Source of the DNA: Diphasiastrum complanatum | Lineage: Eukaryota; Streptophyta; Lycopodiopsida; Lycopodiales; Lycopodiaceae | Assembly: GCA_029204225.1 (NCBI GenBank) | Contig: CM055095.1 | Coordinates: forward strand, 12,550,399-12,614,398 | DNA: 64,000 nt | Direction: 5' to 3' | Shown: positions 6,234 to 57,849 of the stretch, in pieces | Layout of the letters: each line of letters starts with the position of its first letter | Position numbering within the stretch: the first letter of the stretch is position 1 | Notes under the pieces: model-generated | Seen by the model: only the letters and a program-made list of their open reading frames with translations | What the model was told of the DNA's origin: nothing | Database searches by the model: none | Translations under genes and position numbers: made by a program

Positions 6234-6849
6234 CATATCTATGTTTTTTCGTCCGATCCATCATCCTCGACTCTCCACCATACTCGAAGACGGTCTAAAT
6301 TAGTAGGCTACATTCTGTTATCCTTTTCCGTGGAAACAAAAACAAAAAACTGTGTAAGTGCTGATAAATAGGACAGAAGAAAGGTTGTTTATGAGCACAC
6401 ATTTATATTCAATTGCCCAGTCAAAATCTGACTATAAACGTGCGCTGCCTCTTAAGTTTTATCCTGGCATGTGATTCCGTCGGTGAGAACGAGAAGAGTG
6501 CTCTCACAAGAGGCCAATCCCCGAGAATAATAGCTACGTCTCAGCTCTAATTTCATTTGATGTGGGTGGTGGAAGTAAGTAATAACAACGACAAATTATC
6601 TTTAGCTGTTAAAAAATTTAAAGTATTGTATCATTTCTTCAGAATCTCCTCTCTAAAAAGGAGTCAGGACCTCCTCAGCAAACAGTTGTTCTTTCATGAG
6701 CGCCACAGTGCAGCGCAGCCAGCAGCCAACGCACACGCAGGCACAAGAGCAAGCGCAGCCAGCAGCAGTCAGCAGCCAGAGCAAGCAAAGACGCAGTCTT
6801 TGTGGCGGCGGCGTGCGGAGCTAGCTGGAGTTGAGGTTTGATCAGTAGA
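6231..6849 (+). promoter_or_regulatory. Presumed promoter and 5' leader of glycerol kinase
   Basis: No coding domain is found between the CT tract and the ATG at 6850. The last 150 bp (about 6690-6840) are CAG/GCAGCC-rich, unlike the AT-rich DNA further upstream, as expected for a plant 5' UTR. I could not place a TATA box or transcription start with confidence. Confidence 0.45.
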
Positions 6850-9827
6850 ATGGGATCAGAGGAGAATCATGGGGATGAATTCTATGTTGGAGCAATTGAT
6901 CAAGGCACCACCAGTACCCGGTTCATCTTGTACGATCGAAATGCCTGTCCCGTTGCCTCGCACAAAATGGAGTTCCCACAGATCTACCCGCAAGCAGGGT
7001 CTGTATCAACAACATCATCTAATGATTTTACCTCGTTTTTCTTTGTGATTGGTGCTTCGTGTCCTTTCGTCAAGCTGAAACTAAATGTATAATCTAAGTT
7101 AGACAGTCCCACAACCGAAACTATGTCTGCTAACGCATCGTCTGGAGTGCTGATACTCACATGTCACTAGATAAAACTTCTGATTATCCCTCTGCAAAGC
7201 TTGCAGGATACCAAGATTTGAAAAAGCCTACTCTGTTACAATTCGTAGGCAGATTAAATACTCTTCGGTCGTAAGAATTACGTCCTCTCCTGGTTACAGC
7301 TCTGTTACAGTCTGCAAACGTGTAAATTAAGTCTTGTATGGATAGAATGGAAGTATGCTAACATACAATTTTAATGTCTCGCAACCATCTTGTTAGTCAA
7401 TAAGTCATCTAATGCTCGCGAAGATGAAGATAAGAGTTTGATAGCAGCAAAACTGGAGTTCCAATACTGGACTTATAGAATCTAGACACTAGTTGTAATT
7501 TGTGACGGCAGCAACGAAAACCTAATTATTGCGCCGGCCGCTTTCTATGTTTAGAAGAGCTTGCTCATATATGATAACGAAGCCCCATTTATATATGCAA
7601 GGGCGTAGGTGTGACAATTCCGCTTCAGAACCTTCCAAGTGTTGTTACATTACCATCTCATGCTCATATCTTTGTGCGAGATATCGCGGCACTTCACAGC
7701 GAAACTTTTAGTCGCCTTCCTGCAAATACAGCTTGCTATTTTAGAGTTCATATATCGACAATTTGAGTTCCGGCCACTTTCTTGTTTTTTAGATGGTGGC
7801 CTATGATTTTATTTTATCCGAAAGGTATCTTCCTACAAGCTTAACGGACTAGATATCTGATCGTTGTCCTGTGTGACATTTTAGTTGATTTCATAACACA
7901 TGGCACCTGCATTTGAGATACATGTTTTTCAGAAATAATAATAGTAGTCATCGAGGTCTAAATTAAAGTTGTGTGGGGCTGAAGAATGAAATTTTTTGCA
8001 GGTGGGTGGAGCACGATCCTATGGTTATCTTGGATACCGTAAAAGTTTGTTTTCAGGAAGCTTACGCACAAGCAACGGCACAAGGCCTCTCCATTGACGG
8101 CAAGATGAAAGCTATTGGCATAACCAATCAGAGGGAAACAACTATTATTTGGAGCAAGAGCACTGGCCTTCCGCTGTACAACGCAATTGTCTGGATGGAT
8201 GCAAGGACTAGTGCCATATGCAGGTCAAATAATTTCATTTTAGAGTTTCGTATACATGTGTTTGCTGTTTTATCCTTTTTGTCTGATCCGAAACTTGTAA
8301 ATGATGCAATCAATTCATAACTAACGTACCGAATTTTTCTCACTTTCCAATCGAATTTTTGATTTTTTATAGGCGGTTGGAACAGCAGTTACCCATGGGT
8401 CGATCACAGTTCGTAGAAACTTGTGGGTTACCAATCAGTACTTATTTCAGTGCAATGAAGTTAATTTGGTTGCTTGAATCCGTGCCGGAGGTAAAAGCTG
8501 CGGTTGAGAGTGGTGATGCCCTCTTTGGCACAGTAGAAACTTGGATAATCTGGAATCTGACACAGGGAGCAACAAAGAATAAGTCAGAAGCAGGAGGCAT
8601 ACATGTCACGGACTGTTCTAATGCCGCCCGTACAATGCTCATGGATCTGAAGACTTTGGAATGGCACGAACCGACCCTCGAGTTGCTTGGAATTCCGAAA
8701 AGTATTCTTCCACGCATTGTTAGCAATTCTGAAGTTATTGGGTACATTGCTGAAGGGTGGCTTTTTTCCGGAATTCCCATATCTGGCTGTCTGGGTGATC
8801 AACACGCTGCAGTTTTAGGTCAGCATTGCAAGAAAGGTGAAGCTAAAAGCACATATGGCACAGGATGCTTTATCCTGCTCAATACTGGAGACGAGGTGAT
8901 CCGCTCTAAGCATGGTCTTTTGTCGACAGTAGCATTCAAGCTAGGCCCGAATGCCCCTACCCACTATGCATTGGAAGGATCCATTGCAATCGCCGGAGCT
9001 GCTGTGCAGTGGCTGCGAGACAGCCTTGGCGTCATCCAAAATTTTGGGGAAGTGGATGGCTTGGCTAACTCGGTTGAGAATACAGGGGGTGTGTATTTTG
9101 TGCCAGCCTTCAATGGGCTTTTTGCCCCGTGGTGGAGGGAGGATGCACGCGGTGTCTGCGTAGGCATTACGCGCTTCACCAACAGAGGACACATTGCCCG
9201 CGCTGTGCTCGAAAGCATATGCTTTCAGGCTATAGACGTTTTACGTGTGATGCATGCAGATGCAGGCCATACAAATCCAGAAGATTATATTCTTAAAGTG
9301 GACGGAGGCGCATCAGCCTCCAATCTGCTTCTTCAGCTTCAGGTAAATACATCTTGAACTATATTACAGGTAGCATATTCATAGAAAGGTACGCTGCTTA
9401 TTTCCTTGATTATGCAATTTAATCTGGCTAATTATATACTACAACAGTGATAAAGAGAGATGCAGATATTCATGGTTAAAGTTTTTTGTTTCTCTTGTAT
9501 ATCATACTTAGCGTTGCATTGTGGTCCCTGAATGTTCGAATTTTGAGTTTGTGACGCGAACTTTTGTGAGGATTGCAGGCCAATTTGCTAGGAAGTCCCG
9601 TAGTACGGCCGGCAGACGTGGAGACGACTGCGCGTGGTGCAGCATTTGCTGCAGGACTGGCAGTGGGGTTGTGGACTGAGAAGCAAGTGCTTGGAGAAGT
9701 TTCATTATCTCAGCGTAAAGCTATCACCTTCTATCCTGACAGCGCTAAAGAGGATAGAGTGAAGCGATATGAGTGCTGGTGTAAAGCAGTAGAAAGATGT
9801 TTTGGCCTTGCAGAGCTTGAATCTTAA
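6850..9827 (+). CDS. GLI1: Glycerol kinase, four exons
   Basis: ATP-dependent phosphorylation of glycerol to glycerol-3-phosphate, the entry step of glycerol use, expected in the cytosol. Exons by eye: 6850-6998, 8002-8223, 8373-9342 and 9579-9827. Introns are GT-AG (GTCTGT..TTGCAG, GTCAAA..TTATAG, GTAAAT..TTGCAG). The joined length is 1590 nt, 529 residues, close to the usual plant length of about 520. FGGY-kinase features: DQGTTSTRF at residues 17-25, [52 protein letters not shown] and [20 protein letters not shown]. The start was chosen at the ATG giving [11 protein letters not shown]. No stop or frameshift was seen, so it appears functional. It closely resembles Arabidopsis GLI1/NHO1; the symbol is by family resemblance. 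It is the only clearly intact host gene in the window. Confidence 0.96.
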
Positions 9828-11540: not shown

Positions 11541-12782
11541 AAAGGTGTAGGTCTTGCCTTTCGTTCTTTACGGGTACACATCTTGGTTTTAACGGATATT
11601 GCCTTTAAATGACAAGTCTGACCTTTAAATGTAAGACCATAACTTCTAGTAAGGTATGGGCCTTAAGAAGGTATAAGTTTGTGCCAATAGAAGATATGCT
11701 CTTTAAGTGGTACAACTATGTTGTTAAACTGATGTACATAAGATGCTTGGCAAAAATTAGTGTTTGTCAAAATTCATGATGTCCCAAATGATGTACGGGA
11801 GGTGCTCAACAAAAATTGATAGTGCTCGTCAAAATTCATAATGCCCTAGAAAGAAATCCCAATTTTCCAAGCGCCCGATGTGTCCAGGTAGAGGGCTCGG
11901 TTTCCAAGGTGCTCGTGAATCATATGGGGCCCGTATCTTCCAACGGGGGTCACCCACAATGTGAACTAAATGTATTGTAGGGGGGTTTGATTTTTTAATT
12001 TGATGGGGATTTTCCACCCATCTCGGATGTTAGCGTCTCACCCTATCTTCCAAGGGGTCGGCACAATTCTAACTTTAGTGATGGTGGTTATGCCAAAGAC
12101 AAAAACACGGCACCCTTATATGCACCTCTCACCTTAGACCGAGGAGGTCTCTGAGAAGACGAGACCAACGAAGACTGAGAGCCGAGGAATGCTAGTTAGT
12201 ATTGTCAAGTAAAACTGTGTAAGCCTCATGGTGAATCCCGGAAGATGGAATGACCATGTAGGAACTAGTATTTCTAGGCAAATGTAATAAATGCAAGTAG
12301 ACCCCTCTTAAAGAAAGTAGAGTGAGCTACCTTTTGATGGTGACCTCTAGTGGAGAGCATTATTCCACTTGTAATTTGTGAAATGTGGAAATTCCACTAG
12401 GATGCCACCTAAGGAGCTCTCTTGCTTATTTAAGAGACTTCCTCTTTGAGGTGAGAAGCTTTTTGTGTAATGTATCTACTCCATGCTGAAATGAGAAGAG
12501 CCTCCACGAGTTTGGTGCATCCATTGAGCTCTTTGATCATGCTTGTTTCTTGAATGATGCATTCATGATCTTGCCCTCCCCTCCTATGTGTGTGGTTGTG
12601 GATAGTAAAGTGTATTAGTTTTCATGCTCAAGTCTCACACAATTCGGCTAACATAAATAGCTTGTTTTGTACTTCTTGTTCAATTGTAACTTTCTCACAT
12701 AGATTAGTAGAGAAAGCTTGCATAACTCGCGAGGAAGGAACTAAGAACTCACTTGACCGTATACAAGATGGAAGGGAGTAAC
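11541..12782. other. Unassigned intergenic sequence, possible LTR near 12.2-12.8 kb
   Basis: No protein family recognised. Around 11540-11720 there are loose repeats with CTTTAAATG-type words. Near 12430 a TATTTAAG box lies upstream of a T-rich leader, which would suit an LTR promoter in plus orientation, but no second LTR was found. Confidence 0.35.
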
Positions 12783-12962
12783 TCATCTAGTGGCCTTCTT
12801 GGGAGTTGTGCAGTATGCCCAGATAGTAGATAACAGCTTGGTTTCCCAATCTAATCTACTAGTTTCAACTATCTTGGTTAGGATTTTACAAATGGTCTTG
12901 TTTGTCGATTCTGCTTGGCCATTACATTTGGGATAGTACGGAGTACTTTTGCGGTGGATAAC
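12783..12962 (-). pseudogene. Ty3/gypsy integrase fragment, C-terminal part of core
   Basis: Minus strand: VIHRKSTPYYPKCNGQAEST, then NKTICKILTKIVE and LDWETKLLSTIWAY, the end of the integrase core including the Glu region, cut off at 12783. The preceding codons of the same core (HFGCPIELVSDRG..NFLRHYL) are found 6.6 kb away at 19534-19634. The two pieces align end to end with gypsy 2 (near 42500-42620). The DNA transposon at 12963-19533 therefore split one integrase gene. Confidence 0.88.
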
Positions 12963-12993
12963 CATTAGAGAAACTTAGAGTCCAACGAGGGCC
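12963..12993 (+). repeat. Left terminal inverted repeat
   Basis: Reads CATTAGAGAAAC, then a GAGGGCC block at positions 25-31. The inverted partner is 19503-19533. Confidence 0.75.
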
Positions 12994-14108
12994 TTTGAAA
13001 AAGATGTTTTTTTTTTTTTTTTTTTTTCTTATTTTCGTTGCCATGTGGACCAATTGAAACCTTAGCTTCAGGGTTCTACGTAACATAGAATTTTCCAAAT
13101 ATAAATAAAATAAAAACTTTTTAAATATATTGTTGTTTCGTCGGGCAGCATGTGGAAATGCTATTGGTTGATGAGGCCTACCCTTCCAGCTCATCACTGC
13201 CCGAAGAGACCCAAAAATATTGAAAATGAATATGACAAATGGTTGAGATGAGAAAATCGATGTACCATTAATGTATATGCATTGTCAAATCATGGTTGAC
13301 AGGGTTAACAAGAGTTAATTTGTGGCGCCAAATAGATCAGTGTTTCAAATTTTTGCCAACACTTTTTCTCAAATTCATGGCTTTTTGTCTACGCAAATTT
13401 TCAGATTCATAGTTCATTACTTTCTAATACAGCTCCAATGCCGACTGCAACAACCAAAATACAAATATCGATAAATTCATATTTATGAAAAAATTTCTTA
13501 CTTATTAAAACAATGAAGCATGCAACAATCCAGATTAAAGCAACAAAAACAAAAGAGCAATCCTTACTTATTTTCATATGGAATCAAATAGAATTTCACC
13601 ATAGGACTGCATTCGATAAAATAGACAGCCTTCTCAAAATTGGCTTCTTTCGCCTTTACTGCTCCCATGAAAAATGGACTAACAACAAAAATTGTACCAT
13701 AGGAATCGAAACTAATATTATTCTACAAAAAAAAAACTCCGGCTTCTACTATTACATCTGAAATTTCTGAGGTTTTATCTTTCAACTCGGCACAAAATTT
13801 GGGACTTAATCTAAAGCTTCTATGTGTAATTGGAAGAAAAAAAATCAAAAAAGTTGTCGAGAAGATCAATTTTATTAGCTAGGTAGGCCTCGTATTGATT
13901 ATAATGGTCAGAATAAAAAGAATACCTGGGCTGGACTTTATGGAATTCTCACAAAAAGATTATGTACAGGAGCAAAAACAGAAGTGGAAACAATATTTAC
14001 AGATTTCTCTGTTATTTTGTCTAGCTCCTCTTGGGTAATCAACACTTTTGGTGATGAAACCTGCTGAGGAGTTGGACGAGTAACAGGAGGAGAACTGGGT
14101 GAAGATTC
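12994..14108. other. AT-rich subterminal region of the DNA transposon
   Basis: Contains a poly-T run (about 13007-13027) and many A/T-rich words. A short plus ORF (82 aa at 13513) has no recognisable domain. No gene is called. Confidence 0.5.
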
Positions 14109-14693
14109 TCAAAGTGAGTCAGATTCTCCAGCATCTAACTCAGAGCTCAGGATGACACGAGGTCTTTTGGCAGGGATACGTCTAGGAGGAAGGGAAGCAA
14201 CTGGCCTTCGAGATCCAGCCTTCTTGGGGACAGCCTGCTTTCTCTTCCTCCTAGAGGTAGTAGGCACGTCGGTTCTATCCAGAGGCAGATTTTTGGAGGT
14301 GCTGACATTATCTAGATGCAGACTAGAATATATGTCCGGAAGCCTTTTGAGAATGACGAAATCCTTTGGCATGATGGTGACACGCTTACCATGCACTGCC
14401 AAAAGACAAGTATCCTCAAAACACTGGGACAAAAAATCTTCTACAGCACCTTGCAAAGCCTGCATGGTTGTCACGACAAAACAAACATCAAGCCCAAGTG
14501 ACAGAGTGACATTTCGGACAGATCGGTCAAAAGGAGCTCTAGAAATCAACAATTCAGTTGATCTCTGGAGTTTTCTGATCTTTGTAAGCCATACCTGCTT
14601 CCTGCCACGCCTACGGCCAGTATCAGCGGGAACACGGGAATGGGATGGCTGTACAGTGGTGATGGCACGGGCGGTGGATTTAGTCTTGGCCAT
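14109..14693 (-). CDS. Histone H3-like protein carried by a DNA transposon
   Basis: Intact single-exon ORF of 194 residues (a second ATG one codon upstream at 14696 is also possible). Seen: an H3-type N-terminus AKTKSTAR (compare ARTKQTAR), then a tail about 13 residues shorter than H3. The histone fold follows with LQRSTELLISRAPFDRSVRN, MQALQGAVEDFLSQ and CFEDTCLLAVHGKRVTIMPK. Loop 1 has the canonical H3 length, without the insertion usual in CenH3. The Lys4 equivalent is kept; Lys9 and Lys27 equivalents are lost. After the fold comes an extra C-terminal tail of about 65 residues, rich in basic clusters (SRRKRKQ, PKKAGSRRP, PPRRIPAKRPR) and ending acidic (SELDAGESDSL), which H3 lacks. Nucleosome incorporation is inferred from the family. 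Location inside the TIRs suggests capture by the transposon. Confidence 0.88.
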   Translation of the reverse strand: MAKTKSTARAITTVQPSHSRVPADTGRRRGRKQVWLTKIRKLQRSTELLISRAPFDRSVRNVTLSLGLDVCFVVTTMQALQGAVEDFLSQCFEDTCLLAVHGKRVTIMPKDFVILKRLPDIYSSLHLDNVSTSKNLPLDRTDVPTTSRRKRKQAVPKKAGSRRPVASLPPRRIPAKRPRVILSSELDAGESDSL

Positions 14694-14696
14694 CAT

Positions 14697-15340
14697 TCTC
14701 GGAAGAAGAAAATTAAAAAAAAAAAAAATTCAACAAAAGAAAGGTGGTTGAAAACAAAAAAAAAAATTGCGATAAAAGGGCGCTAGAGATCGATACCAGA
14801 ACTGAATATTGGTTTCGAGTGCAAGATCTACACAGATTATTTTATGAAAAGAGATGCGTGCTCGAAAGCGATATTGCACTACCAACGGTATCTAACTCGA
14901 GCGCACTATGAGAGGGCGAAAGCTTGAACGGTGAAAGAGCGCGCTTGAGAGCGATATTGGGAGCTAAAAGCAAAAATTTTGCAAAAAAATATGAAAATTT
15001 TGAGGACTTATATATACGAAATTTTTGCACGTGTGAAAATACGGCGAAGACACGTGTCGTCATATTATTGCTCCGCGTGGAATGTCTGAACTGAAAATGA
15101 TGACCCAATTATGAGACCACGTGGGCTGAGACACCTGGATCCAATACTGCATCGTCCGGTATCGCATTCAAGCGCACTTCACATCTCTTTTATTTTATGC
15201 TCTGTGTTCTTGCGCTTGGATCCGATACTCCAACTTGAAATATCTCTCTCGAGCACACGTTCCCTGGACCTGCTTGCCTGACCTGCGGTTTGCGCCTGAG
15301 AGCGATATTTGGAACTTTAGTTCTATTGTTTTTGTTCAAA
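14697..15340. promoter_or_regulatory. Divergent intergenic region with repeated GAGAGCGATATTGG motif
   Basis: Lies between the start codons of the H3-like gene (minus) and the orphan gene (plus), so it probably holds both promoters. The motif (G/C)(A)GCGATATT(G/T)G recurs near 14861-14879, 14945-14960 and 15293-15312, with weaker relatives (GAGATCGATACC near 14787, GGATCCGATACTCC near 15219). Confidence 0.5.
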
Positions 15341-16502
15341 ATGTCTAATTTTGATTCTAGTTTGTTTTCTTTTTTTCATGAATTTGGTATTACTGATAGG
15401 TTGGAGTATTTCAAATCTCTTTTTCTCCTTTCCTTTTTATTCTACCTTCTATAACTGAGGGCTTTGGTGTGGAGACTTTTCTGAGATATATCTCAGATTT
15501 AAGTCCCTGCTCAGTACTCCATTATTCAGATCTCAAAATAAGAACATGATTCAATATCAGGACCTGGTGGCACTTGACAAGCATATCTATAAGGGTAAGC
15601 TTGACAGAATGTTTACCAAGTTACATAATGATTTCAAGTCTGTAGACAAGTGCCCAATTCATAATAAAAAATGTAGATTTGTTGATTTTCGGTCTGCTTT
15701 TATTTTTTTTCTCTTGTTAAATATTTCTGACGATTCGGAGGCTGTCCCCTCCACTTTTGAAGCAGCTTCTTCTAGTGGTACAAAGTCTGAAAAGTCAAAG
15801 ATTGTAGATATAGATACTTTTTGAATTGATACGAGTGTTAATTTAGATGATTGTTCTGATTTTGATCCTACTCAAAATAGGGCTACGTTTATAGACCCTA
15901 GAACACCCACTACCCTTTCTCCTTCTGATAAATCTTTGATCATTTTGCCTACTTATAATATAGATAATAATTCCTTTTTGATAATATCGGATATATCGGA
16001 TCTTTTTGACTTCACTGAAGCTGAGACTCTTTGCATTTTGAGCAAAGAGCTTGATGAATTTTCGGATATAATTGATTTTGATGCTGATGATCTTCTTTAT
16101 GGTGTTGACGATGTACATAATGATAAGTTTTATTCAAGGAAAGATTGTTTGAAAATGGTTGTGAAGGAAATGCGCAACAAAGAAGATGATCTACCTTCTG
16201 AGGAGGAGTTTTTTAGAATCCAAAGTCAACTTGGTCTTCCACAGCCAACTGTCTATTCACCAACAATATTGACATCAAAAGGTGGACATAATATCGATGG
16301 AGAGATAGTAATCAGGGAAGACAAAGCCGAATGCGTAAGTTTTTGTATCTTATCAAGTACTAGTAGATTTGTTATGTCAGATTATATACTGGAGCTTACT
16401 TTGTTTTTTATCATTTCAGGAAACAATTTTCGTCGATTTTGTATTATGACAAATCTGGATTCCTCTGTAAAACCATTGGAAAAGTTGTAGTATATAGCTG
16501 TG
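15341..16502 (+). pseudogene. Orphan gene in the DNA transposon, decayed
   Basis: A plus-strand reading starts at ATG 15341 (MSNFDSSLFSFFHEFGITDR), changes frame near 15450, and continues from 15546 (MIQYQDLVALDKHIYKGKLD). It includes a CPIHNKKCRF segment that could bind zinc, a Ser-rich linker, a TGA at 15822-15824, then an acidic region (SDISDLFDFTEAETLCILSK) and KEMRNKEDDLPSEEEF. A good intron (GTAAGT at 16335 to TTTCAG at 16419) follows; beyond it the frame soon stops, overlapping the transposase end on the opposite strand. I recognise no family. It may be an accessory protein of the element. Confidence 0.45.
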
Positions 16503-19141
16503 TTTTGTGCTAGTCCCGCCATGTTGTGTACTTTTATGAAATGCCGCTCTTGCTTGCCAATGAGATTTTTTCATTCCTTGCGATGACCATATGCTAAGAC
16601 TTCCACTATTTCTTGCAAAGAATGTTGAATGATGTAGTAATATGTGCTGCATGTCATAAAAACATAATCTAAATCAGTACCAAAAGTATCTAATTTAATT
16701 GCACATATTTGTCTATCGTAGTATAAAATCAAAATCTTACCATATAATGTGTTATATGATCAACACCCCATGCACTTTGAACTGCATCCACAGATTCACT
16801 AGTTGTTTTCTGTATCATTTGTACATCAGTATTTGAAAATTTATCTTTTCTCAAGTATTTCACCATGTTGTCTAACTTTTTCCAAACTTCTACTTTGTGT
16901 ATACGAGTAGAACCTTCTTCAAAATCTTGAGTTGTTGCAATAATATTTTTCCAAACCGTGTATTGGACCTTAGATTGTTTTCCAGAATAATTTGATAAAA
17001 ATCTTCGAGCTTTAGATCCTCCAATGCTCGGCTTGCATGGAATATTTCCTGTTTTACTTGATAGCTTGTCATCTTTTTTTATTTTAACTTGGCCTTTATT
17101 TACATAAGCCTGTTTTGGACAACACATCCTCTAATATGGAAATAGCTTCCTTCGTAGAGGCCTCTGGCTCGGAATTCCATGCAAATAAGATGTGAAGATA
17201 TATTATTTTTTCTATAATACGCACCTCTGCATGCAATGTACAGATATGAACATTTCGTAGAGGAATCGGTAGTACGGGTTTCCAATTAGGATCTTCTCGA
17301 TCTCTTGATATTCATGTACTCCTTGTCATGTCTTTTGTTGTTTTCATGCAGTAAAAACAAGGGTGTTTAGAGTTAGCGCCATGAGATACATTGAACATAC
17401 ATTCTAATGTCTTCAGATCTCCTGCTAAATGCCATTCAATGTTGAAAGTGCCAATTCCAGGAAGATTGAGTGGAACTCTCCATGTGATTTTTTATGGTGG
17501 CAGGATGTGATGTTTTATTAAATATCCATGAAAGAATGTCATGGTCTTCTTTCAGCACCTATAAGAGAATACAAAAACGTGATTAGCCTCACAATATTAA
17601 CATAGAGAAGATTTTTCATATGAAATCCATTTTCAAATGATTATCCCTATTTATTATGCGAAGGAACTGCTATACCTGAAATGCTGCCAACCACCAGATA
17701 TCATTTTCTGATTGAACACTGAAATTGAGGCCTTCTGAGTCTTTTGAATTTGAAAGTGCTCCATTCATGATCGTGAGACTGACTCTTTCCACTTTTTGTC
17801 CTTTTATAATTTCAGACTCATCTAACTTGAGAACAATTATCAACTTGTTATTGACATTCTCATTTGTAATACCGTAAAAATTTATGATGAATGTTAATAA
17901 CTGATTAATGTCAATAAATAAATTGTTGGAATTGTTATAAGCTAGACTTTCTCCTTACGAACAATAAACTTCATTGTTATGAGATGGATTACAAACTATT
18001 GTCTGCATACCATGGTTTAACATGTTGTTGTTTTTTAAAAATGAAATGGTCATGGAATTGGAAACTTTTTAATATTCACCTCTACAAATGCCTCCTTTAT
18101 CATCTTAAACATTGTTGCATATCCTTCCCTACTGATGCTAGAAAAGTCACATGCCCCTGAAGCAATGTAGTGTCTAATATTTTTCCAACTTCATCCATAA
18201 TGTTATCAGTAACTGAAGCCTTAATCTTTTTGATTTTGTTATTATTTAACATTGATTTCATGGATTTAGAAGTCCAGATAGAGCCTAGTAAGTTTCCAAT
18301 TGAAATCTCATCGGCCAAATGGTCTTCAACAACCAATGCTGATCTGCATTGCAAACATAATGTTCATGAAAATGTCAGCAGAAATTAGGACACTTCACAG
18401 CAGTATATGATAAGCAAATCAACAGAAAGTTGAAATGAATAAATAACAAAATTAGTGATTATGAATGAATCAAAAAGCTCAAGCAATATTCAATACCAAA
18501 TAAGCTATAACTTACTTGAATGTATGGATTTGTCTTTTTCTATGACCTCCTCTGGATGATAGATCACATATATCCTTGTTTACCAGTCTTTTCCTCTTGT
18601 TGCTTCAGACCTTTCTGTTGAGCACATCCATATCTTTAACAAGAGACAAATATGAGATATGCATCGATTGAAATGCAATTTTTATCTCATCATTACTAGT
18701 TGTATAATGATGCAAAGAAGATTTCAACCTTTGAATCTCCTCCTTGAGCATCTCATTTTCATCCAAACAAGTTTTCATCTTTGTAGATTTTTCTTCGCAC
18801 TCCTTTGATATTTTCCTTGATTCCTCTTCCAAATAATGTATTCTTTGCATTGAATGTGCATTCCCATAGAGCATCAAATTCTCACAGTAACCCAAAAGGC
18901 CATTTTTACCATGACACATATAGATTATCAACTGACTCACCGAATGAAAATCTGGATGTTGCAATGAACATGGATCAATAGAATACAATGTTCCCGATGA
19001 CCATAAATCTACATGCTTTAGCTTTTCCTCCCTGTATCGGACCATATCAGAAGTTGAAAATTTGGGTTGCTTTGAATTTCTCGTCTTGGGCGGAGCATAT
19101 TTTGGTGACAGATCCACATGAAGATGATAAAGCTTTGTCAT
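16416..19141 (-). pseudogene. Multi-exon DDE-type transposase (decayed)
   Basis: Minus strand. Exons by eye: 19141 to about 18516 (MTKLYHLHVDLSPKYAPPKT, a coiled-coil segment, TGA at 18605-18607); 18343-18080 (SALVVEDHLADEISIGNLLG, later SREGYATMFKMIKEA in another frame); about 18002-17676; 17558-16743; 16646-16416. Catalytic-like motifs in order: KLIIVLKLDESEI with VERVSLTIMNG (first Asp); EWHLAGDLKTLECMF then HPCFYC (second Asp plus a CxxC pair); IPLRNVHICTLHAEVRIIEK; and SLSIWSSQGMKKSHWQARA with FHKSTQHGG. This order resembles an RNase H-fold transposase group with 'GD.K.L..' followed by 'CxxC' and 'LH..LRI'; I cannot name the superfamily. At least three stops and several frameshifts make it inactive. 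An N-terminal duplicate lies at 20042-20478. Confidence 0.65.
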
Positions 19142-19502
19142 CAGTACAGTAGTATAGTAACAAACAACACAATGACAATAACAAAGCTGGAGATGGCGCT
19201 AACGACTCTGCTGGAGATAGCGATGGCGCTAAACATTTGTTTTTGACCCTGGATATAGAGATAGCGTAGGCTTTTTTCAGAAATGTCACTCCTAATTCAA
19301 ATTTTTGAGTGAGGGAATATTTCAGCATTTTGGAAAAAAAAAAATTAACTATGGTTAAACACCAGTGAAGTTTGATGTGACTAAACTAAGGTGCATTATT
19401 TTACATGGAAAGTAATGCGAGCAGATGCATAAAGAAGTTAGAAAATGATATTATAATTACTTTACAGTTATTTTTCTCTCTCCTACATGGCATTTCTTAT
19501 AG

Positions 19503-19533
19503 GGCCCTCTTTGGGCCCATATTTTCTCTAATG
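19503..19533 (-). repeat. Right terminal inverted repeat
   Basis: On the minus strand reads CATTAGAGAAAATATGGGCC and then an AAAGAGGGCC block, partner of 12963-12993. Confidence 0.75.
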
Positions 19534-19634
19534 AAGGTAATGGCGTAGGAAATTATCGATCACTTCATTTAAGAAGTGTGTGCCTCTGTCACTAACAAGC
19601 TCGATTGGACAGCCAAAATGTGTAATAATGTTTT
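19534..19634 (-). pseudogene. Ty3/gypsy integrase fragment, middle of core
   Basis: 101 bp reading NIITHFGCPIELVSDRGTHF then LNEVIDNFLRHYL on the minus strand, including the SDRG Asp. It is the missing upstream part of the fragment at 12783-12962. Transposon ends lie on both sides of it. Confidence 0.85.
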
Positions 19635-20478
19635 CATTAGAGAAAATATGGGCCCAAAGAGGGCCCTATAAGAAATGCCATGTAGGATAAAGAAAAATAA
19701 CTATAAAGTTGTTATAATATCATTTTCTAACTTCTTTACGCATCTGCCTGCACTACTTTCCATGTAAATGAATGCATGTTAGTTTAGTCACATCAAACTT
19801 CACTTGTGCTTAACCATAGTTAAAATATAATTTTCAAAATGTATTCCCTCCCAAAAGTTGGGAACATCAAAAATTTGAATTAGGAGTAACATCTCTGAAA
19901 CAAAGTCTACGCCATCTCTATCTCCAGGGTCAAACAAGTGTTTGGCGCCATCTCTATCTCCAGTAGGGTCGAACAAGTGTTTAGTGCCATCTCCAGCTTT
20001 GTTATTGTCATTGTGTTGTTTGTTACTATACTATTGTACTGATGACAAAACTTTATCATCTTCATGTAGATCTGTCACCAAAATATGCTCTGCTTAGGAC
20101 AAGAAATTCAAAGCAACCCAAATTGACAACTTCTGATATGGTCCAATACAGAGAGGAAAAGCTAAAGCATGTAGATTTATGGTCATCAAGAACATTGTAT
20201 CTTGTTGGTCCATGTTCATTGCAACATCCAGATTTTCAGTCGGTGAGTCAGTTAATAATCTATATGTGTCATGACAAAGATGGCCTTTTGGGTTACAAAA
20301 ATCTACAAAGTTAAAAACTTGTTTGGATGAAAATGAGATGCTCAAGAAGGAGATCGCAAAGTTGAAATCTTCTTTGCATCATTATGCAACTAGTAATGAT
20401 GAGATAAAATCTGAATTTCAATCCATGCATATCTCATATTTGTCTCTTGTTAAAGATATGAATGTGTCAACAGAAAGG
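19635..20478 (+). mobile_element. Truncated second copy of the DNA transposon, inverted
   Basis: Begins with the same terminus (CATTAGAGAAAATATGGGCC) and repeats, in reverse orientation, the 5' end of the transposase gene: MTKLYHLHVDLSPKYALLRT at 20042. An internal deletion of about 110 bp relative to the first copy removes the segment after LLGY. Homology stops at about 20478 (..ACAGAAAGG), where gypsy RNase H begins. With 18606-19533 it forms a near-palindrome with arms of about 0.85-0.93 kb around a 101-bp spacer. Confidence 0.82.
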
Positions 20479-20690
20479 TAAGGACCTTCGTGGCCGTAAG
20501 ACTAGATGGTCGGAACTCATTCCGGAGTTTGTCTTTGATGTTAAGTATCGTAAAGGTACGTCGAACTGTGTTGCCGATGCCTTGAGTCGGATTGGAAAGA
20601 TTAATCAGTTATGCTTTGCTGAGATCCAATTTGATTTGTATCTTCCACTACGGGATCTTTGTCGAATCGATAGGTTTTGTTGCGAACCTG
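20479..20690 (+). pseudogene. Ty3/gypsy RNase H C-terminal fragment
   Basis: Reads KDLRGRKTRWSELIPEFVFD then VKYRKGTSNCVADALSRIGK, the end of gypsy RNase H. It is followed directly by the start of another RT domain, so domain order is reversed and two gypsy fragments are joined here. Confidence 0.82.
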
Positions 20691-23175: not shown

Positions 23176-23990
23176 TCAATGGTTTTTTAATTTTATTAGT
23201 TTTTCAATTTGTTGTTTTCGGTATTTGATTGTTCCAATTTATTTAAAAAAGACAATTTAAAAAAAAATGAAAAAAATAAATTGAGAAAATACTGATGAGC
23301 AAAAGTCAAGATAGTCATGAGCATGGGAAAAAAAGAAGGATAGTCTTTTTGATGAAAAATGACTTAAAAAATCACTGTTTTGGTTAGATGTGGCCTATAC
23401 AATACCAGAAACCTTCGTTGAGCTCTCAGACTATACATCCACTCTAGATTTTTGAGTTGGGCGAAGGTTCCTGTCCAGAAAAAATCCAATTTTTGAGTCA
23501 GACGAAGGATCAGTGATATGCCATTTTGGGAACCTTCGCCAAGCACCTTAACCTCATTATGAACCTTCGCCGACCTGCTAGATGATCTTAAAATGTCAAA
23601 ATTAGGTTGTCTATAGGTTCAAATTGTGAAAAAATACATTTATGACAATATCTGGACGAAGGACCCTCTTGGGCGAAGGTTCATCCTTCGTCAGTCTTGG
23701 AAAACGTTCGCCTGATTGGTTCAGATCCCCAAAAACCTTCGCCGAGATTTTTATAGCCTATTTTCACAATATTGTACATGCCTACAAATTTTTGTTCCGA
23801 ATTGATCAACCAAACTAGTATTCAGTGTAATGGACCCACCAAATTCACCTATAAGTTGGCTGAATTCGATTCATTCCTCACTTGTGCTAGCAAAGCTCTT
23901 GCAAATTTTTCCCGCGACCAAAGCCTTCCAAACTTCCTGAACTGCTTTCTAATATACTTTTGCGCATCTTACATTTCCTTTCTGCTCATC
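23176..23990 (+). promoter_or_regulatory. Pol-to-aORF spacer with GAACCTTCGC motif cluster
   Basis: Non-coding. The word (G)AACCTTCGC or its complement GCGAAGGTT(C), with variants GACGAAGGA and GTTCGCC, recurs about nine times between 23400 and 23745, in both orientations, so many copies can pair. The gypsy 2 spacer (43640-43930) has a similar cluster. Confidence 0.5.
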
Positions 23991-26900
23991 ATGTCTTCTA
24001 CTGATACTTCCCAATCTCCGCGTTATGCTATCCATCGTGATGTCCCATCTGCAACGGACATCATGATACTTCCTAGCACAAGCATGGTCACTCAGTGGAT
24101 GACCCTTGAGGAGCCTTTGCTCACTGCAATGGGTATTCATGAGATAGTCGTTTTTGGCAGAATCAACATGGATTTCATCACTCTTGCCTTCAGTATGTGG
24201 AAGGAAGAGAAATCCAAATTTTATATCACTTTTCAAGGAGCCACACACAAGGTGCGCGTCACTGAGGCCGCCCTTTTGCAGCCATAGGTATAGTGTTCGG
24301 TACACAGGCCTCACCAAATCATAAGCAGGCGAAACAAGCCATAAAGCCATACATCGACCTCACCAATGATTTGCATTGGAACAATGACGGATACCTCCTT
24401 GAAGCCATCACTGAGCCTTCCATCCACATTGTTGCCCAACTACTGAACAACTTCTTGATGGTTGGGAACCTCAGGAAAGATTGCATCACTTCACAAATCC
24501 TCTATAGGATAGTTGAGTCCTATACCAAGTTGGACAAAGCCCCTCTTGAACCATATAATTGGTTCAAAAATGTTTCTGGTGAGCTCAAATGAGCTATTAA
24601 GAGCAATACTCAGCAGCAGTTTGCTGCTGGCTCTTTGTTGTTTCTTCTAGCCACCTCTCACCTAGAAAATAAAATCCATGGTTTCCACCTGGATTCTGTG
24701 CTTTCAGTCTATGAAGAAGCATCGTCCGAGTCATCCCCACAGGCCTCGAGTTCCCATAGTCGACGTCATCCACGCAGCGAGATCGTCATTCCTGACTCAC
24801 CTTCCGCGTCACGACATCGCACTAGGCATACATCGTCAGCTGCGCTTCTGCCCCCTGCTGCTGTTCGCACTGAACTTTCGATTCCCCCCACCTCTGATGT
24901 TTCTCTCATCTCTACCTTCACACAAGGATAGTCTGTGACCATTGGGGCTACCATTCCCATCACAGCTACCCAGGACGCCTCACCCCCACACACCGAAGCT
25001 ACTTCACCAAACACGTAGTATTTCATGGATATGTTTGATGATTCCGACCCCCTTGGGGCCACCAAAATTTTTGAAATGTCCCAGAGTCCTGCACCCTTTG
25101 AGCTCCAATTTTCTGGAAGAGGATTTGAACAAATTCATGACACTATTGTCGGTTTTGAAGATTCAAGCCAGCAACCTCAAACTGAAGATAGCCCAGCCGC
25201 ACTTCGGGTCAACCAAGCTGTGAAATCACCGAAGCAGTCGATGCCACCGTGCCTGAGGGTTTCGAGGAGATATTTTTGAAGAAGAAGAAGAAGTACTGGC
25301 ACCTATTCCACACCAATCAAGGACAGTATCATCAGGTCCTCATGTTGCTGTCGCCTCCACGACAGTAGATTCTGGTGATGCTCTCGGTTTGGTCTCAAGC
25401 CTTGCACAAGTGATCTAGTCTATGCTTGACAAGAAAAAAGAAATGGAGCTGAGAATTTCTGATATGGAAGCAGAAAACACTCTGATCAGCCATAAGATTG
25501 TCCAGTTGGATCGAGAGTTAAAAATCGCCAAGCAGCATGAAGACAAATCTGAAACCGAAAAGAAGCTGGCATAGCAACATGCTGATTGCCTTGAAGGATA
25601 TGTCAGTTCCCTGCAAAACGCCCTGACAATAGCACATGATCAGGTGGATAAGGCCGTGCAGGATGCAAAACAACAGGTGCAACTACTGAAGGGTCAATTG
25701 TAAATGACGGAATAGGATCGCACGCGTCTTCAAGATGAATTGGATGTGACCACCCTTGAGTGTGATGTGTATCTTCAGACGCAAATACCAGATCATCCGG
25801 TCACTCCGACGGAGATCGCGTATTTGTTCAAGAAAGTGAAAACATACAAAGTGGCCCTTCAGGGATTCCAAGGCCGCTTTGACAGGTTCAAAGGAGCATC
25901 TTCAATTGAGTTGGCCAAGGCTAAAAAAACCATCAGCGCCTATGAAAAAATAGTCTCTTAGGTGTTGGAAGCCTGACCACAAATCTCTGTACCGGTCATG
26001 CCGCAATTCTTCCCTATGCGCCAAGAAGATGTACTAATGGATACAGGGTTAGATTCGGACATGGACCAGGGGGGAGCTCCAGATATAAAAGAACAACCGC
26101 CAACTTTATCGGCAGTGCAAGCGAGTCCATCCTCATCAAGGACCACACCTCTATCCAGAAGGCCCATCAACGTCAAGGACCAGATCTGGAGCTTCTTAAT
26201 GCAACATCCGCATGAGTCCTCGCGTGGGGGTTGGGTTCTGAAGTTTAAGACCTCCGAGATAGAGGTCGGCAAAGAGTTGGACAAAATACTTGCATTGGGA
26301 GAGCAACCGGCATGGAGAATTACCGTTTTTGAGAAAACTCTCGAATCAATCAAGAGTTACGTTGCTAGCCCTCACCAATTGTGGGTCGATCCTTATTATG
26401 TGCCAATGTCGAGAAGGAATAAATGGAAAGATTTGGGATTGGCTATGGACAAAATCACCATCCATACGCCCAATTGACCAATCATCCATCAGCCCTATAA
26501 CTGGACAATTTCAGTGGACTTCCACTGGGGTTTACAAGCATACCAGAGAGAGTATGTCCACTCTTCAGATCCAACGGTGCAACAATCGGCACTATTTGCA
26601 AAAGATCTAACTCTGTTGGCGTTAGTGGCAACCAGATGGGACGATTGCCTCCCTCCTCTGGCATTCGATCCAAATAAGCCGATGGCCTCAGAGAATATCA
26701 AAGATCAGTTGCCAGTTGCTCATTTATACTTTCATGCAGCAATGATGGGAGGCTCCTATGAAAGATTTCAGATCCTTAAGATCCAATCTACTTGAATGAT
26801 CTTTGGTTAGAAAGAGAAATACACTACCAATCTCACCAATGTAGAAAAATCAGCATCTACACACAAAATGAGATGCAAACACCAATAGAACTTGATCAAA

Positions 26901-44284: not shown

Positions 44285-47200
44285 ATGGCATCCTCACCTT
44301 CTGACGACTCTGGCATTAAGCAAGTGATCCAGCGCGAGATACCATCAGCCACCCATATTTGGACCTTGCCTTCTGATGCTTTGATTAAATCATGGCTTCA
44401 GATTGCTGGCCCACTTCTTGAAGCAATGGGGTTCTACTCAGCGCTTTTCAGTTCTGACATCAACATGGGCCTCACCCATCATGCATATGCCACTTGGGAC
44501 GCGCCGAAGATGCGTTTCCACTTCCTGTACCAGGGTACCATGGTACGGGTTAACGCAGACTCGATGGTCATTGTCGGCATTATGTCTGGTGACCGCCAGC
44601 CCATCTCTCATCATCGGGCAAAAGCCCTGATAAAGCCTTTTGTAACCCAAACTTCACCTGAAATTCCAATCCAAACTAACAATGGGTACTTGATAGAGGC
44701 TATCACGAACTCCATCATTCAGACGACCGTGCATCTGTTGAACAACTTTTTGGTTGTTTCAACATTTCGCAAGTACAAAATCTAGTCCAAGCTACTTAGT
44801 CAGATTGTGGAGTCCTTCTTGAGATTCTCACCCACAGTCGTGCCATACGACTAGCATGCCTTCCTCATCCATGAATTAACAATTTTCATCAAACCAAATA
44901 CTCATGACCGTATCGCAATGAGTCCCCTGTTGTGTAACTTTGCTTGTGCACTTCTCGAGGCAAAAGTGTGCGACTTTCGCCGTTCTAGTCTTTTATCATC
45001 CATTGTGCCACACACTAACCTCTATCCTCCATCTACTGCATCCTCGTCTGTCCAACCTGCAGTCACTGATATGATGGCCAGCAAAAGAATGTGTGGTGCT
45101 ACCCCCTCCTTCTCATCCCCACTTGCTACCAGATGTCGTACCACCACCATCACGCCAGTAACAATTCCGACTTCTACCACCGACACTTCCTCTTCTATAC
45201 AGCCCCCTACCACTGTTTCTGTTGTCGTTTCTCTTCTTTCTGTTCCACCCACAACTACTGCTTCTATTTCCATTTTTCTTTGTAGATACTACTTCTACCT
45301 CTGTTCCATCTTCTACCACCCCTTCCATTACTATCACATCCTCCATTACCCATGTTTTCACCGTTGTCCCTCTCCAGTTCAATCATGTTGATTCACAGTT
45401 GTCTCGGACACCCTGGCGTGGATGCAGGTCATAAACTTTTCACTGCCATGCCAAGCCACTTCAGCCCCATCTTCTCCTTCCGTCCTTCACACCACCCTAC
45501 AGTTTTCCCCTGTTTCGTCCATTCTCTCTTTTGGACAAACTGTCCCCATCCCTGTCTCCGCTTCTGTTCCTCCCACACCACTCACTTCTCATCAAAGGTT
45601 GTCGAGGGCGACCAACCGTTGTCTGATGACGCATTTGTACAAACTATTTTTATTCCATCACCAGATCATGCAGATCCCACCGCACTTGATGACAAGAGAT
45701 TACCAGAGAAACTCATAGAGGAGGACGACGACGCCTACCAGGCCTTGGCAACATTTATCCAAGACACAGTAGCATCCAGAGCCTTCTTGGAAAGCCAAAT
45801 ACTGCATTTGGCAACCAACAACACTCAGCTGCGAGCAGAAATCACAGAGATGCAGCATGAGCTGATCATCGCTCAACAACACGAACAAGATAGGCACCGA
45901 GAGATCACAAAGCTACAGCAAAAGGAGGACGGCCTCAATCAGTATATCCAGAGCCTCTCCAAAGTGCTGATGGATGCCTCCACAAAGGTGCAGGAGCTTT
46001 AGTCTGAAGCATCCCGATGGCTTGCACCCCTCTAGACGCAACTCCAGATATAGAAAGCAGAAAACACACGCTTGGGAGCAGAGGTGCAAGCACCGCAATG
46101 TGAAAAACTCGTCTGGTTAGCTTAAACCCGCACCTGACTCAAGGCCACTATCTCAAGCATAGATGAATCTTTTCAGGCGTCAGGTGCAGGTCTACAATCA
46201 AGCTCTGAACAACTACCAGGCGGAGTTCGACGGGCTAGCGCAACTCAGAGCTCATCCAGGCCAAAGAAGCCCTCAAGGCTTGTCAATAGGTTCTAAAGCA
46301 GAAGGCTCAACCAACCCCAATGGTAATTTCAATGCCACCTCTCTTTGATGCTGCACAGGAAAGTACGAGCCAAGATCAAGGCCAGTAGACAGCATGGGAC
46401 ACAAGTTAGAATCAGGGGTCAGGTGGGCAAGACCAAGGGCCTCTCAATACTGAAGCATACACGCTGACCCGAGGCCAAGATACAGGCCCCAACCAGATCC
46501 AAGAAGAAGGACAACCTCATCATCATGAGGCTCACGTTTTATATCTGCCAGCCGGACCTTCAGACGCCCCAAGTCCGTGGAGGAAAAGATCAACGAATTC
46601 CTATCCAAATATCTCCACGAGTCTTCAAGAGGCGGCTGACAAATCTCATTCACAGCTCACACCATCAAAGAAAATGAACTACAAGCACTCCTCGCCCTCT
46701 GACCTCAACCAGAGTGGCGCCAACAGTTGTTTGAACGTGACCCTACGACCATCAGGGCATACGTGACTAGTCCACAACAACTTAGGGTGAACGCGCATTT
46801 TTTGTCATGCACACGATGATCTAAATGGGCGAAATGCGACACCCCTCTGGACAAAATCACCCTCGATAATTGTAATTGGCCAAGAATTTCATAAGAGCAT
46901 GGCTGGACAAGGCTGTATATGCCCAAAGGGCTCTCAACAAATTTTCAAATGAGTATTTCAATTGTCCAAACCCAATCGTCCGCGTGGCCGCAACGTACGC
47001 CTGGAACTTAGAATATCTGATGGGTATAGAGACCAAATGGGATAACTTCGTCCCGCCCATATGTTTTGATCCTAATAAGGCAATGGCCTCCAATTGCGTG
47101 GAAGATCAGTTGTCAATCGCTCATGTGTATTATTGAACCGACCTTTTGGGCCATCCTTGGATGAGCCGTTTTCAAGCTTGGATCGATCAACGATGGATCA

Positions 47201-47883: not shown

Positions 47884-49059
47884 ATGGGTCAAGGAGCTAC
47901 CCACAAGGTGCGAGTCACTAAGGCTGCCCTTGCTGCCATAGGTATAGTTTCTGGGCCTCGACCAACTCCAAACCACAAGCATGCAAAATCTGTCATCAAG
48001 CCTTTTGTGCACATCACTGTCAAACTGTACTACACCAATGATGGTCGCCTGCTAGAGGCCATTAGAGATTTGATCCTCCATGCTGCTGTGTAGCTCCTGA
48101 ATAACTTTCTGATGGCTGGCAACCTCAAGAAAGAAATGATCTCTTCCTAGTACCTCCATCGCTTGGTAGAATCTAACTACGAGTCAGATAAGGGAACCAT
48201 GCAACCGCACGCCTGCTGGTATAAGACGGTCTTCGAGGAGCTGAAGAGAGTGATCAAGAGTAATACCAAACAACAATTCGTTGTTGTCTCTCTTATGGCC
48301 GCCTTAGCCACCTCATATCTAGACAATAAGGTTCATGGATTTCGTGCTGAGTCCGTGCTAGCCACCTACGAAGTAGCACCAGTTGAATCCTCCCGCCAAA
48401 CATCCAACTCTTAGAATCGTCGACGAGTACACAATGAGATTGTCGCATCCGCCTCGCCTCCCGCATCTCGGATGTCACACTCAACCACCACCATCAGCTG
48501 CGCCTATATCCCCTAATGCAACTCGCACTGAACTACCCATTACCTCAGCCACTATAGCTACCCTCATCTCTGATTCCTCCCAAGGGCCATCTGTGGCAAT
48601 TGGATCTTCTATTCCAATCACAGCAATCCAAGCCGCCTTCCCCCCATATATTTCACCAGAAACCTAGCGGTTTATGGATATGATCAATGATTCCGACCCT
48701 TTACAGGCAGATGGAATATTTGAGATGCCTCAGGCCCCGCGCCTTTTATTCCAAACTCCCCCGAAAGAGTATTCGATCAATTCCATGAAACCTTTAACAC
48801 TTTTGATTCAGCACCACAGTCAGGCGGCCAAGCAGAACAAGCATATTAGGCACCAGATACCATCAGTGTCACTTCTACAATTGTATCACTGAAGTAGTTC
48901 GACGCCGCATAACTATATGAGTTTGCAGAAGAAGATATCTTTGAAGAGGAAGATCGACAGACAACAACTCAAGACCAATCACCACAAGCTACGAGACTTA
49001 GAGCTCCTCTTCCTATTGCTGCTATTACATCATCACCCTTGGATTCTAGTGATGCCTTT
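47884..49059 (+). pseudogene. Accessory ORF copy 3, truncated at both ends
   Basis: Begins within the family at GQGATHKVRVTKAALAAIGI, then HAKSVIKPFVHIT, DGRLLEAIRDLILHAAV, a stop, LLNNFLMAGNLKKEM, WYKTVFEELKRVIKSNTKQQ, LATSYLDNKVHGFRAESVLA, the Ser/Pro linker, and DSSDAF at the exact point where the copia 4 LTR starts (49060). It matches copy 1 more closely than copy 2. The remainder should lie beyond 64000, on the far side of copia 4. No gypsy pol directly precedes it. Confidence 0.65.
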
Positions 49060-56199: not shown

Positions 56200-57845
56200 T
56201 GCTCTAGCAGAAAATCAATACTTAGGTGATGGATGGTGGATGATGAGTGTGATAACCTATTCTTGCTTATCTATGGCTCCCTACCAAGTTATATCCAAGG
56301 CAATCCCTACTGAATATACCTTAGGCTTCTCCCAACTAGACGAGATAGGAATAGGTGACCAAGATGTTGATGGTAATTGTGAATATGTACAGGCCTAAGT
56401 ATAAAGATATCTCACTGTTTCACTTTTGGCGGTCATAGATCCCATTTTCACGCTTGGATTGATGATGCCAAGTTTTCAAGTTTTGATCTTTCAAGAGGTA
56501 TTGGGGTTTGCTAGTTTTAGCTCTGGAGAATTCGCACACAAGTGAAGAGGTTCGCACAAAGGCCAAGCTTGCCAAAACAAGTACCATGCAAGTACTATTT
56601 GAGGAAAGATCAAGAATTTGTATCGTTAGATAATTTGGAGGAGGTTGCTATGTTTCTCTCACCTTCTTTGGACTTTCCTGGTATTTTTAGAGCCTCTGGT
56701 CCTTAGGGCAAAAGTACCTCCAACCTATTCACACATGCCAATTTTGATCATTTTATGGGGGCCTTTTTCGATTTCTTGGTCAAGATGTGTAAGTAGAGTA
56801 TTTGCACATGTGTTAAAGATTTTGCTGGGAATCTATGCGAATATTTACCATGATGAAATATGCAAAAATAGCCATTTTTGCTCTGTATCTTACCATTGAT
56901 GATAACATAGAGTCTCATAATATTTTCGAGTTATTCCAATGAAATCTGATCCTGGTTTGACATGTTTGGCATTGTTGACACGCCACTGTCATTTGCCTCA
57001 CTAGAGTCTCTTGTTCTCATATTACCACTTGAGGGTGGCAGTACCTGGACAGGCCTCTTCATCGGCAGTCTCGAGATTTGAAGGCAATGGATTGATCCCC
57101 ACCGGTCAGTAGTAACTCAGCATACAAAACTTTCACTCAGAAAACTCAACGTTTGTTAGCTTGAGATTATGACAGGCCATTTGCTCCTTGCCATCTGAAT
57201 GCTCTTAACATACCATTGAACTCCTTACAAGAAAAACAGTTGTCTCAGGCAAACTTGTTTCAAAACAAGCGCTCTCTATGTCGAGATTCTATGCACTTAG
57301 ATTATGGGTGATGGATGTTGATATCGACAGATTTGGCAAACTTACTGTGACGGATCTATGGTTTCCTACTAGGACACTATTAAGGCATTCCCTACTAGAG
57401 GTGCCTAAGGCTATCAAAACAAATTCATCATGATAGGATTGTCGGCGATGGAAGATGGATATGTACAATTCTAGGTGCAACGTGTATCTGCAAGAGCTTG
57501 GAGTTTCCTGAGTGGAACCATATGATGCTGATGTTAGAGGATTTTACTAAGTTTCAAGTGCTTGAAATTATGGGTCTTCATTGTGATCACAAATGAACCT
57601 CTCTAGATAGAAATTGCATGCATGCCTGGGACTCGCACAAGTCCAGATCTTGCCAAAAAACAGGCTATGCGAGTACTAGATAGTTCTACTTTAGGAGAGA
57701 TCAGAGATTTTGCACTTGAAAGTATTTCTACAAGTTTGTTCTGGGTTTTCTTACCTTATTTGGGAGTTCTTTTTTTGTCTTTTTTTTTTAAGTTACTCAC
57801 CTCCTCTAGGATTCTTGTAGCTGACAAAAGTCGTTGCGAAAATCA
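56200..57845. other. LARD interior, unassigned
   Basis: No domain recognised. Words such as GGTTCGCACAAAG and GACTCGCACAAGTCC near 56530 and 57628 foreshadow the minisatellite. Confidence 0.45.
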
Positions 57846-57849
57846 GGGA

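Follow-up and report, generated by a model that had tools for sequence, protein, structure and literature searches.

The H3-like gene described here lies in a 64,000-nucleotide stretch of the genome of the lycophyte Diphasiastrum complanatum (Lycopodiaceae), G000:C4:12550399-12614398, hereafter called the window; the assembly measures 1.745 Gb. The gene sits inside a 6,571-bp insert (12963-19533) that is bounded by terminal inverted repeats (TIRs) and also carries a transposase gene (Table 1). The initial annotation had placed an H3-like gene with a transposase between TIRs and had described the transposase as riddled with stops, and both statements held, with frame changes seen in addition to the stops. 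The gene content was incomplete, as a third, divergently transcribed gene between these two (gene 2) had been missed. The window also contains a glycerol kinase open reading frame (ORF) of the host at 8395-9354, identical at 317 of 318 residues to the D. complanatum protein O6H91_04G021200. At 57843-58459, diverged tandem repeats with a unit of about 65 nt by self-comparison make up overlapping ORFs on the minus strand. Two related-looking ORFs lie beside gypsy elements at 23778-24287 and 44285-45002, for which a DNA similarity of 24233-25050 to 47889-48699 can be cited.

Table 1. Features of the transposon copy and of its insertion site, in positions of the window.
Feature	Position	Strand	Remarks
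Downstream half of the interrupted gypsy integrase (insertion target)	about 12702-12968	-	
Left TIR	12963-13006	+	CATTAGAGAAA..., then a T-run; pairs with the right end
Decayed continuation of the H3-like gene (linker and C-terminal domain)	13584-14108	-	in frame; uninterrupted as far as 13941, disrupted beyond it
First 195 codons of the H3-like gene, coding for the tail, the histone fold and the beginning of the basic linker	14109-14696	-	ended by a premature TGA
Array of a 16-nt motif (GCGCTTGAGAGCGATA-like)	14780-15307	both orientations	shared upstream region of the H3-like gene and gene 2
Gene 2 (acidic protein)	15341-16447	+	broken; divergent from the H3-like gene, convergent (tail to tail) with the transposase
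Transposase gene, several exons	16419-19141	-	broken by stops and frame changes
Right TIR	19490-19533	-	pairs with the left end
Upstream half of the interrupted gypsy integrase (insertion target)	about 19534-19644	-	
Second, partial copy in inverted orientation, with a right TIR and the beginning of another transposase gene	19635-20479	+	92% inverted repeat

The TIRs are about 44 nt long and begin with CATTAG. Their alignment by eye showed identity at 31 of 44 columns, and none of 2000 shuffles gave an equally good pair. The same ends were found elsewhere in the genome: the right 31-nt end was recovered at 30-31 of 31 positions in 7 of the 20 copies that were fetched, and the left end at 27 or more of 31 positions in 7 of the 14 copies that were extended further. 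Removal of 12963-19533 restored the frame of the interrupted gypsy integrase exactly, with no stop and with no duplicated bases needed, and the rejoined gypsy sequence had 33 residues between two landmark motifs, the same spacing as in another gypsy copy. With TIRs, a transposase gene and an insertion into known sequence, the insert is a TIR DNA transposon. A target-site duplication (TSD) was not detectable in the five two-ended copies (12963-19533 in the window, L017, L022, L023 and L027), where the longest exact flanking repeats were 0, 0, 0, 2 and 0 bp; this is unusual for a RAG1/Transib-like fold. In the inverted partial second copy, tblastn with the family proteins located the transposase N-terminus at 20051-20311. 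A hairpin at 18623-20479 was considered as the element itself and rejected, since it consists of the right end of the element beside the inverted partial copy. Short tandem repeats of about 34-39 nt ('GGCGCCATCTCTATCTCCAG...') occupy 19185-19260 and 19905-19998, in the leader that separates the transposase start from the right TIR, and differ in version between the two neighbouring copies.

The transposase of the window was placed by tblastn with the family proteins at 19132-16422, and in this copy a K replaces the E of the QGME motif. Its predicted fold is closest to RAG1 and Transib, and by this prediction the transposase would belong to the RAG1/Transib superfamily. At the sequence level, a profile of 14 transposase relatives searched against the PDB up to an E of 10 gave two matches, neither of them a transposase, and the 5-bp TSD of the RAG1/Transib type was not found in the five two-ended copies. 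An assignment to hAT was rejected, as the transposase pieces and six relatives contained no Pfam hAT domain and no 8-bp TSD was present in the five two-ended copies; for CACTA, no Transposase_21 match was obtained in the pieces or in the six relatives scanned. Neither the transposase alignment nor the H3-like protein found a relative in scans of viral contigs, and a search of plasmid DNA yielded no match. One transposase relative, P0124, gave 19,057 first-look candidates in the genome, a figure that is not a copy number. Several of the scored P0124 places were open over the matched part (for example C17:17856674-17857507), so that less decayed subfamilies may exist.

The H3-like ORF of the window copy begins with an ATG at 14696, followed by a second ATG at 14693, and stops at 14109. 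The initial annotation had called an H3-like ORF here, and this was confirmed: on the minus strand the product matches Pfam Histone with an E of 3.5e-23, and it is identical to plant H3.3 at 42 of 86 core positions, with a core free of gaps and a loop 1 of H3 length. The Pfam match, together with the close relatives found genome-wide, led us to reject a chance ORF. The closest database proteins are ordinary H3s, the top match being two canonical H3s in tandem, and a weak match to CENP-T_C (E 5.5e-5) lies below the curated cut-off. The AF2 model contains the histone helices and is confident only at residues 51-90, with a pLDDT near 52 for the third helix. The window copy kept 26 of 37 invariant H3 columns as against 16 of 49 other columns (p 0.0005, in a comparison with four sequences). 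The residues that it kept are the ones conserved in other H3s, in a comparison that is biased because the relatives had been found by words shared with the query. When the window copy was taken alone, its replacements were no more conservative than neutral drift would give: 11 of 44 were positive, against a simulated mean of 0.25. The neutral probability of its open core was near 0.09. The H3 part and the host glycerol kinase have the same GC3, 0.44, with 0.22-0.37 in the transposase pieces and 0.27-0.29 in gene 2. This host-like composition fits the capture of a host gene, and the H3-like gene may thus derive from a captured host H3. An antisense ORF of 199 codons runs through the H3-like gene at 14152-14751, and a similar one of 194 codons lies at 6458-7042 of locus L015; it is probably a by-product of base composition.

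A search of the whole assembly with the H3-like protein gave 7,532 first-look candidates, 150 of which were scored. All of these had an E of 2.9e-89 or better, identity was 76-86% in the scored matches other than the window itself, and about 38 of the 150 (by eye) were without an internal stop. We fetched 20 loci of 9 kb, all of them found through the H3-like ORF and 16 picked for a stop-free H3-like part; stop counts in these copies are not evidence, because the copies had been chosen for few stops. A transposase relative was present upstream of the H3-like gene, in the same orientation and order, in 15 of the 20, and gene 2 occupied the same place in 16. Near-duplicates were noted for L016/L026, L025/L028, L018/L023 and L020/L021, and the 17 distinct copies differ from each other by 7-13% at the DNA level. 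After extension of 14 loci, the left end was found in 7, both ends in 4 and neither end in 4, and the two-ended extended copies measured 8896, 8521, 8405 and 9000 bp. In the opposite direction, 2 of 57 scored transposase places were near one of the 150 scored H3 places (by eye), a count that holds among the matches listed and says nothing on absence. In our reading the insert is a decayed member of a high-copy family of TIR DNA transposons in D. complanatum, whose standard gene set is a transposase of predicted RAG1/Transib fold, the divergent gene 2 and a two-domain H3-like protein.

The protein of the family is longer than the ORF in the window. Among the 20 fetched copies the open frame reaches 370 aa in L015, L016 and L026, 336 aa in L022 and 333 aa in L014, and is shorter in the other 15; in the majority sequence of the 17 distinct copies the frame stays open until about residue 370. 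By the standard of the family the TGA in the window is premature, because the frame continues to 370 aa in other copies, and the decayed stretch that follows it (13584-14108) corresponds to the part still open in L015, L016 and L026, its limit at 13584 being derived from the 370-codon length in L015. The ORF that had been called intact is therefore intact for 195 codons but not for the family length, and what had been described as a new basic C-terminal tail is indeed basic but is the start of a linker leading to a further domain. The 370-aa form (Pfam Histone, 1.9e-21) is laid out as an H3 domain, a basic S/P-rich linker and a new C-terminal domain. A Pfam scan of the C-terminal domain gave no match, and comparison of the C-terminal part with the PDB by sequence gave just two chance matches (E 0.84 and 2.1).

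Of 87 core residues, the majority sequence of the family has 48 (55%) in common with plant H3.3, over an ungapped core, and by this core fold of H3 length the protein is a relative of histone H3. R49, R52, R69, R72, R83, H113, K115, R116, T118, K122 and D123 are kept; the loop 2 of nucleosomal H3, KRVTIMPKD, stands out among the kept residues, and the start of the H3 tail is retained as well. The changed residues are R63 and those that concern the H3.1/H3.3 chaperones (87 H to T, 89 V to M, 90 L to Q), and because of these alterations deposition by the known routes is uncertain. The tail starts with ARTKSTARAITT. K4 is present in each of the 22 copies. At residue 9, 20 copies have A, one has V and one has K, and the first 33 residues of the majority tail contain just two lysines, K4 and K31, with no K27 site. 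Canonical H3 and H3.3 were rejected as identities, since K9, K27, the K-rich tail and residues 87-90 are not retained. CenH3 was rejected too, as loop 1 is of H3 length and not of the longer CenH3 type; at the five columns where two CenH3s agree against H3, the window copy has the CenH3 residue at none. Placement in an H3/CenH3 tree, which the initial annotation had proposed, gave long branches that joined others weakly, P0045 at 83/72 and Arabidopsis CENH3 at 63/45.

Gene 2 had no Pfam match, PHD and kelch included. Its convergent arrangement with the transposase resembles that of RAG2-like and RAG1-like genes. The motif array lies in the region from which gene 2 and the H3-like gene diverge: when up to 3 mismatches were allowed, all six matches in the 64 kb fell within the array, against 0.28 expected in the 64 kb, and a matrix search added two weaker copies. 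In all 20 fetched copies the 800 bp upstream of the H3-like gene contain 2-7 copies of the motif, against an expectation from shuffles of 0.03 per 9 kb.

Selection on the H3-like gene was estimated from the first 340 codons of the 17 distinct copies, with observed mutation types and methylation contexts included; this is not a full codon-tree test. Changes private to one copy gave an omega of 1.12 (213 N, 75 S, p 0.43). Changes common to 2-8 copies gave 0.56 (113 N, 77 S, p 0.00018), and those common to 3-8 copies gave 0.44 (58 N, 50 S, p 0.00003). For these three classes in turn, omega was 0.96, 0.51 (p 0.005) and 0.34 (p 0.0006) in the H3 domain and 1.27, 0.58 (p 0.06) and 0.50 (p 0.07) in the C-terminal domain; the values for the linker (1.03, 0.80 and 0.61) were not significant, and codons 1-193 alone gave 0.90, 0.58 and 0.41. 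Pairwise dN/dS was 0.46, and 0.40 for the H3 domain (22 copies), but this measure ignores mutation bias and we therefore relied on the counts of shared and private changes. Neutral change after insertion and constraint before it is the pattern expected of an element gene in use, and the H3-like protein is very probably a functional gene of the element. The initial annotation had proposed to check whether the ORF recurs in other copies and is constrained across them, and recurrence and constraint were both seen in the fetched copies. Of the two outcomes that it had set against its own reading, full-length copies lacking the ORF and a single recent retrocopy without constraint, neither was seen among these copies, which had been found by the ORF itself. 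A retrocopy or lone pseudogene was rejected, as the other copies have the same layout and the changes that they share are constrained.

Transposons are silenced through histone H3 marks. We give a probability of about 0.5 to our explanation as a whole, namely an element family with an H3-like gene that is used for anti-silencing; as the task of the protein itself, anti-silencing is the mechanism that we prefer, tentatively. By this mechanism the H3-like protein would pair with the host H4 and would enter, or replace H3 in, the nucleosomes over the element. The resulting chromatin would have no H3K9 methylation and no K27 site, while methylation of H3K4 would still be possible. The motif array could be the target of the H3-like protein, and the array, together with the C-terminal domain or gene 2, may direct the protein to the element's own promoter by analogy with the VANC proteins of VANDALs, which are MULEs. 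The outcome would be that silencing of the element is counteracted. In its widest form, which we hold with more reserve still, the proposal is that a plant superfamily with a RAG1-like transposase evolved a histone variant of two domains and uses it to build, on its very numerous copies, nucleosomes that cannot be silenced, with K4 retained but neither K9 nor K27. Such a variant would be a histone-based counterpart of VANC, maintained by selection over many rounds of transposition. The initial annotation had proposed that a host H3 was captured and serves the element in its chromatin or in escape from silencing; the host-like GC3 is consistent with the capture, and for the role we would go no further than the conditional steps given above.

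Three other roles were weighed against anti-silencing. NF-Y and CENP-T type proteins use histone folds as DNA-binding or dimerising modules, and the H3-like protein might in the same way have become a sequence-specific regulator of the divergent promoter, bound to the motif array. The 2-7 motif sites upstream of the gene in 20 of 20 fetched copies and the sub-threshold CENP-T_C match (E 5.5e-5) speak for such a role, but the residues that have been kept are those of nucleosomal H3, above all loop 2, and the start of the tail has been kept with them, so that we consider a regulator improbable. A role in the transposition complex, instead of in silencing, is somewhat less improbable but still unlikely. 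The protein, paired with the host H4 or sitting on DNA, might bend the ends or help the transposase to dock on targets in nucleosomes, in the way that the PHD finger of RAG2 links RAG1 to chromatin. Such a role would agree with a gene that is always co-mobilised and under selection, with the predicted transposase fold nearest to RAG1 and Transib, and with the retention in the tail of the ARTK-like K4 peptide, given that RAG2-type PHD fingers are described as readers of methylated H3K4 (PMC7204232). It is weakened by gene 2, which has no Pfam PHD or kelch match, so that no K4 reader was found in the element, and by the PDB profile search, whose two matches up to an E of 10 include no transposase and thus give no sequence-level link to RAG1.

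The least probable role is that of passive cargo, a host H3 gene captured and multiplied without use, as has been suggested for fungal hAT elements. The GC3 of the H3 part, host-like at 0.44 and above the 0.22-0.37 of the transposase pieces, would be expected of such cargo, and the published accounts of the fungal cases describe drift or decay by RIP (PMC3538342, PMC6710886). However, shared changes in the clubmoss gene are constrained (p 0.0002 and 0.00003) whereas private ones are neutral, a conserved extra domain has been gained, and the gene is found across 17 distinct copies that are 7-13% apart at the DNA level. Passive cargo is therefore already disfavoured, and very improbable in our judgement. 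Should anti-silencing prove to be the task, a transposon that supplies its own H3 without K9 would hit silencing at its substrate, and the question of whether a parasite can rewrite the histone would become testable by ChIP and reconstitution.

The initial annotation knew of no described transposon family with an H3 cargo, a view that did not survive comparison with the literature: fungal hAT elements with H3-like genes have been published (PMC3538342, PMC6710886), and the clubmoss case is thus not the first. For Pyrenophora tritici-repentis, the published account describes a 5.6-kb H3L hAT element with 26 nearly identical H3L genes, reports ESTs and places the H3-like protein in neither H3 nor CenH3 (PMC3538342). 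The three-gene plan with a multi-copy H3-like gene is common to both elements. The clubmoss element differs from the fungal one as described there (PMC3538342) in its plant host, its RAG1/Transib-like predicted fold and its length of 8.4-9.0 kb in four two-ended copies, and further in its far more numerous and older copies, its extra C-terminal domain, the lack of a visible TSD and the measured constraint. In Pseudocercospora fijiensis and relatives, an hAT element with an 8-bp TSD is reported to have multiplied H3 to hundreds of copies, the extra copies being destroyed by RIP (PMC6710886). The likeness there lies in a DNA transposon that amplifies an H3 sequence, but the account is of a captured housekeeping H3 and not of a protein maintained by the element (PMC6710886). 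No plant transposon with an H3 cargo was found in the open-access literature that was searched, which does not prove absence.

Other known systems resemble single parts of the element. VANC proteins of Arabidopsis VANDALs are reported to bind motif repeats in the noncoding parts of their own transposon and to strip silent marks (PMC10398659), and the likeness consists in an accessory protein encoded by the element together with short motif repeats in a noncoding region. VANC is not a histone and its function has been shown (PMC10398659), whereas in the clubmoss the motif array is what was seen and the function would follow by inference. The RAGL/ProtoRAG and Transib elements, as far as their published descriptions extend, resemble ours in the predicted fold of the transposase and in a second gene convergent with it (PMC7204232, PMC9435367, PMC8289069, PMC4411706), and also in DDE-like motifs with C-x2-C and H-x4-H. 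The clubmoss element differs from them in its CATTAG TIR, in having no 5-bp TSD and no kelch or PHD gene that could be found, and in carrying an H3-like gene instead; its transposase had no sequence-level match to theirs in the profile search against the PDB, Transib proteins outside the PDB lying beyond that comparison. Transib-like proteins, 39 of them, have already been reported in plants (PMC9435367). Arabidopsis H3.15, which lacks K27, is reported to escape PRC2 (PMC10426802), and it resembles the clubmoss protein in being a variant of H3 without a silencing lysine, one that can dilute a repressive mark; H3.15 is, however, a host gene near canonical H3, whereas the clubmoss protein is element-borne with 55% core identity to H3 in the family majority. 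What is new here is the host kingdom, the transposase type, the extra domain and the measured selection. Taken together, these comparisons suggest that an H3 gene would have joined transposons more than once, in the fungal hAT elements and in a lycophyte element of predicted RAG1/Transib fold, and it is in the clubmoss element, unlike the fungal cases, that selection on the cargo can be measured.
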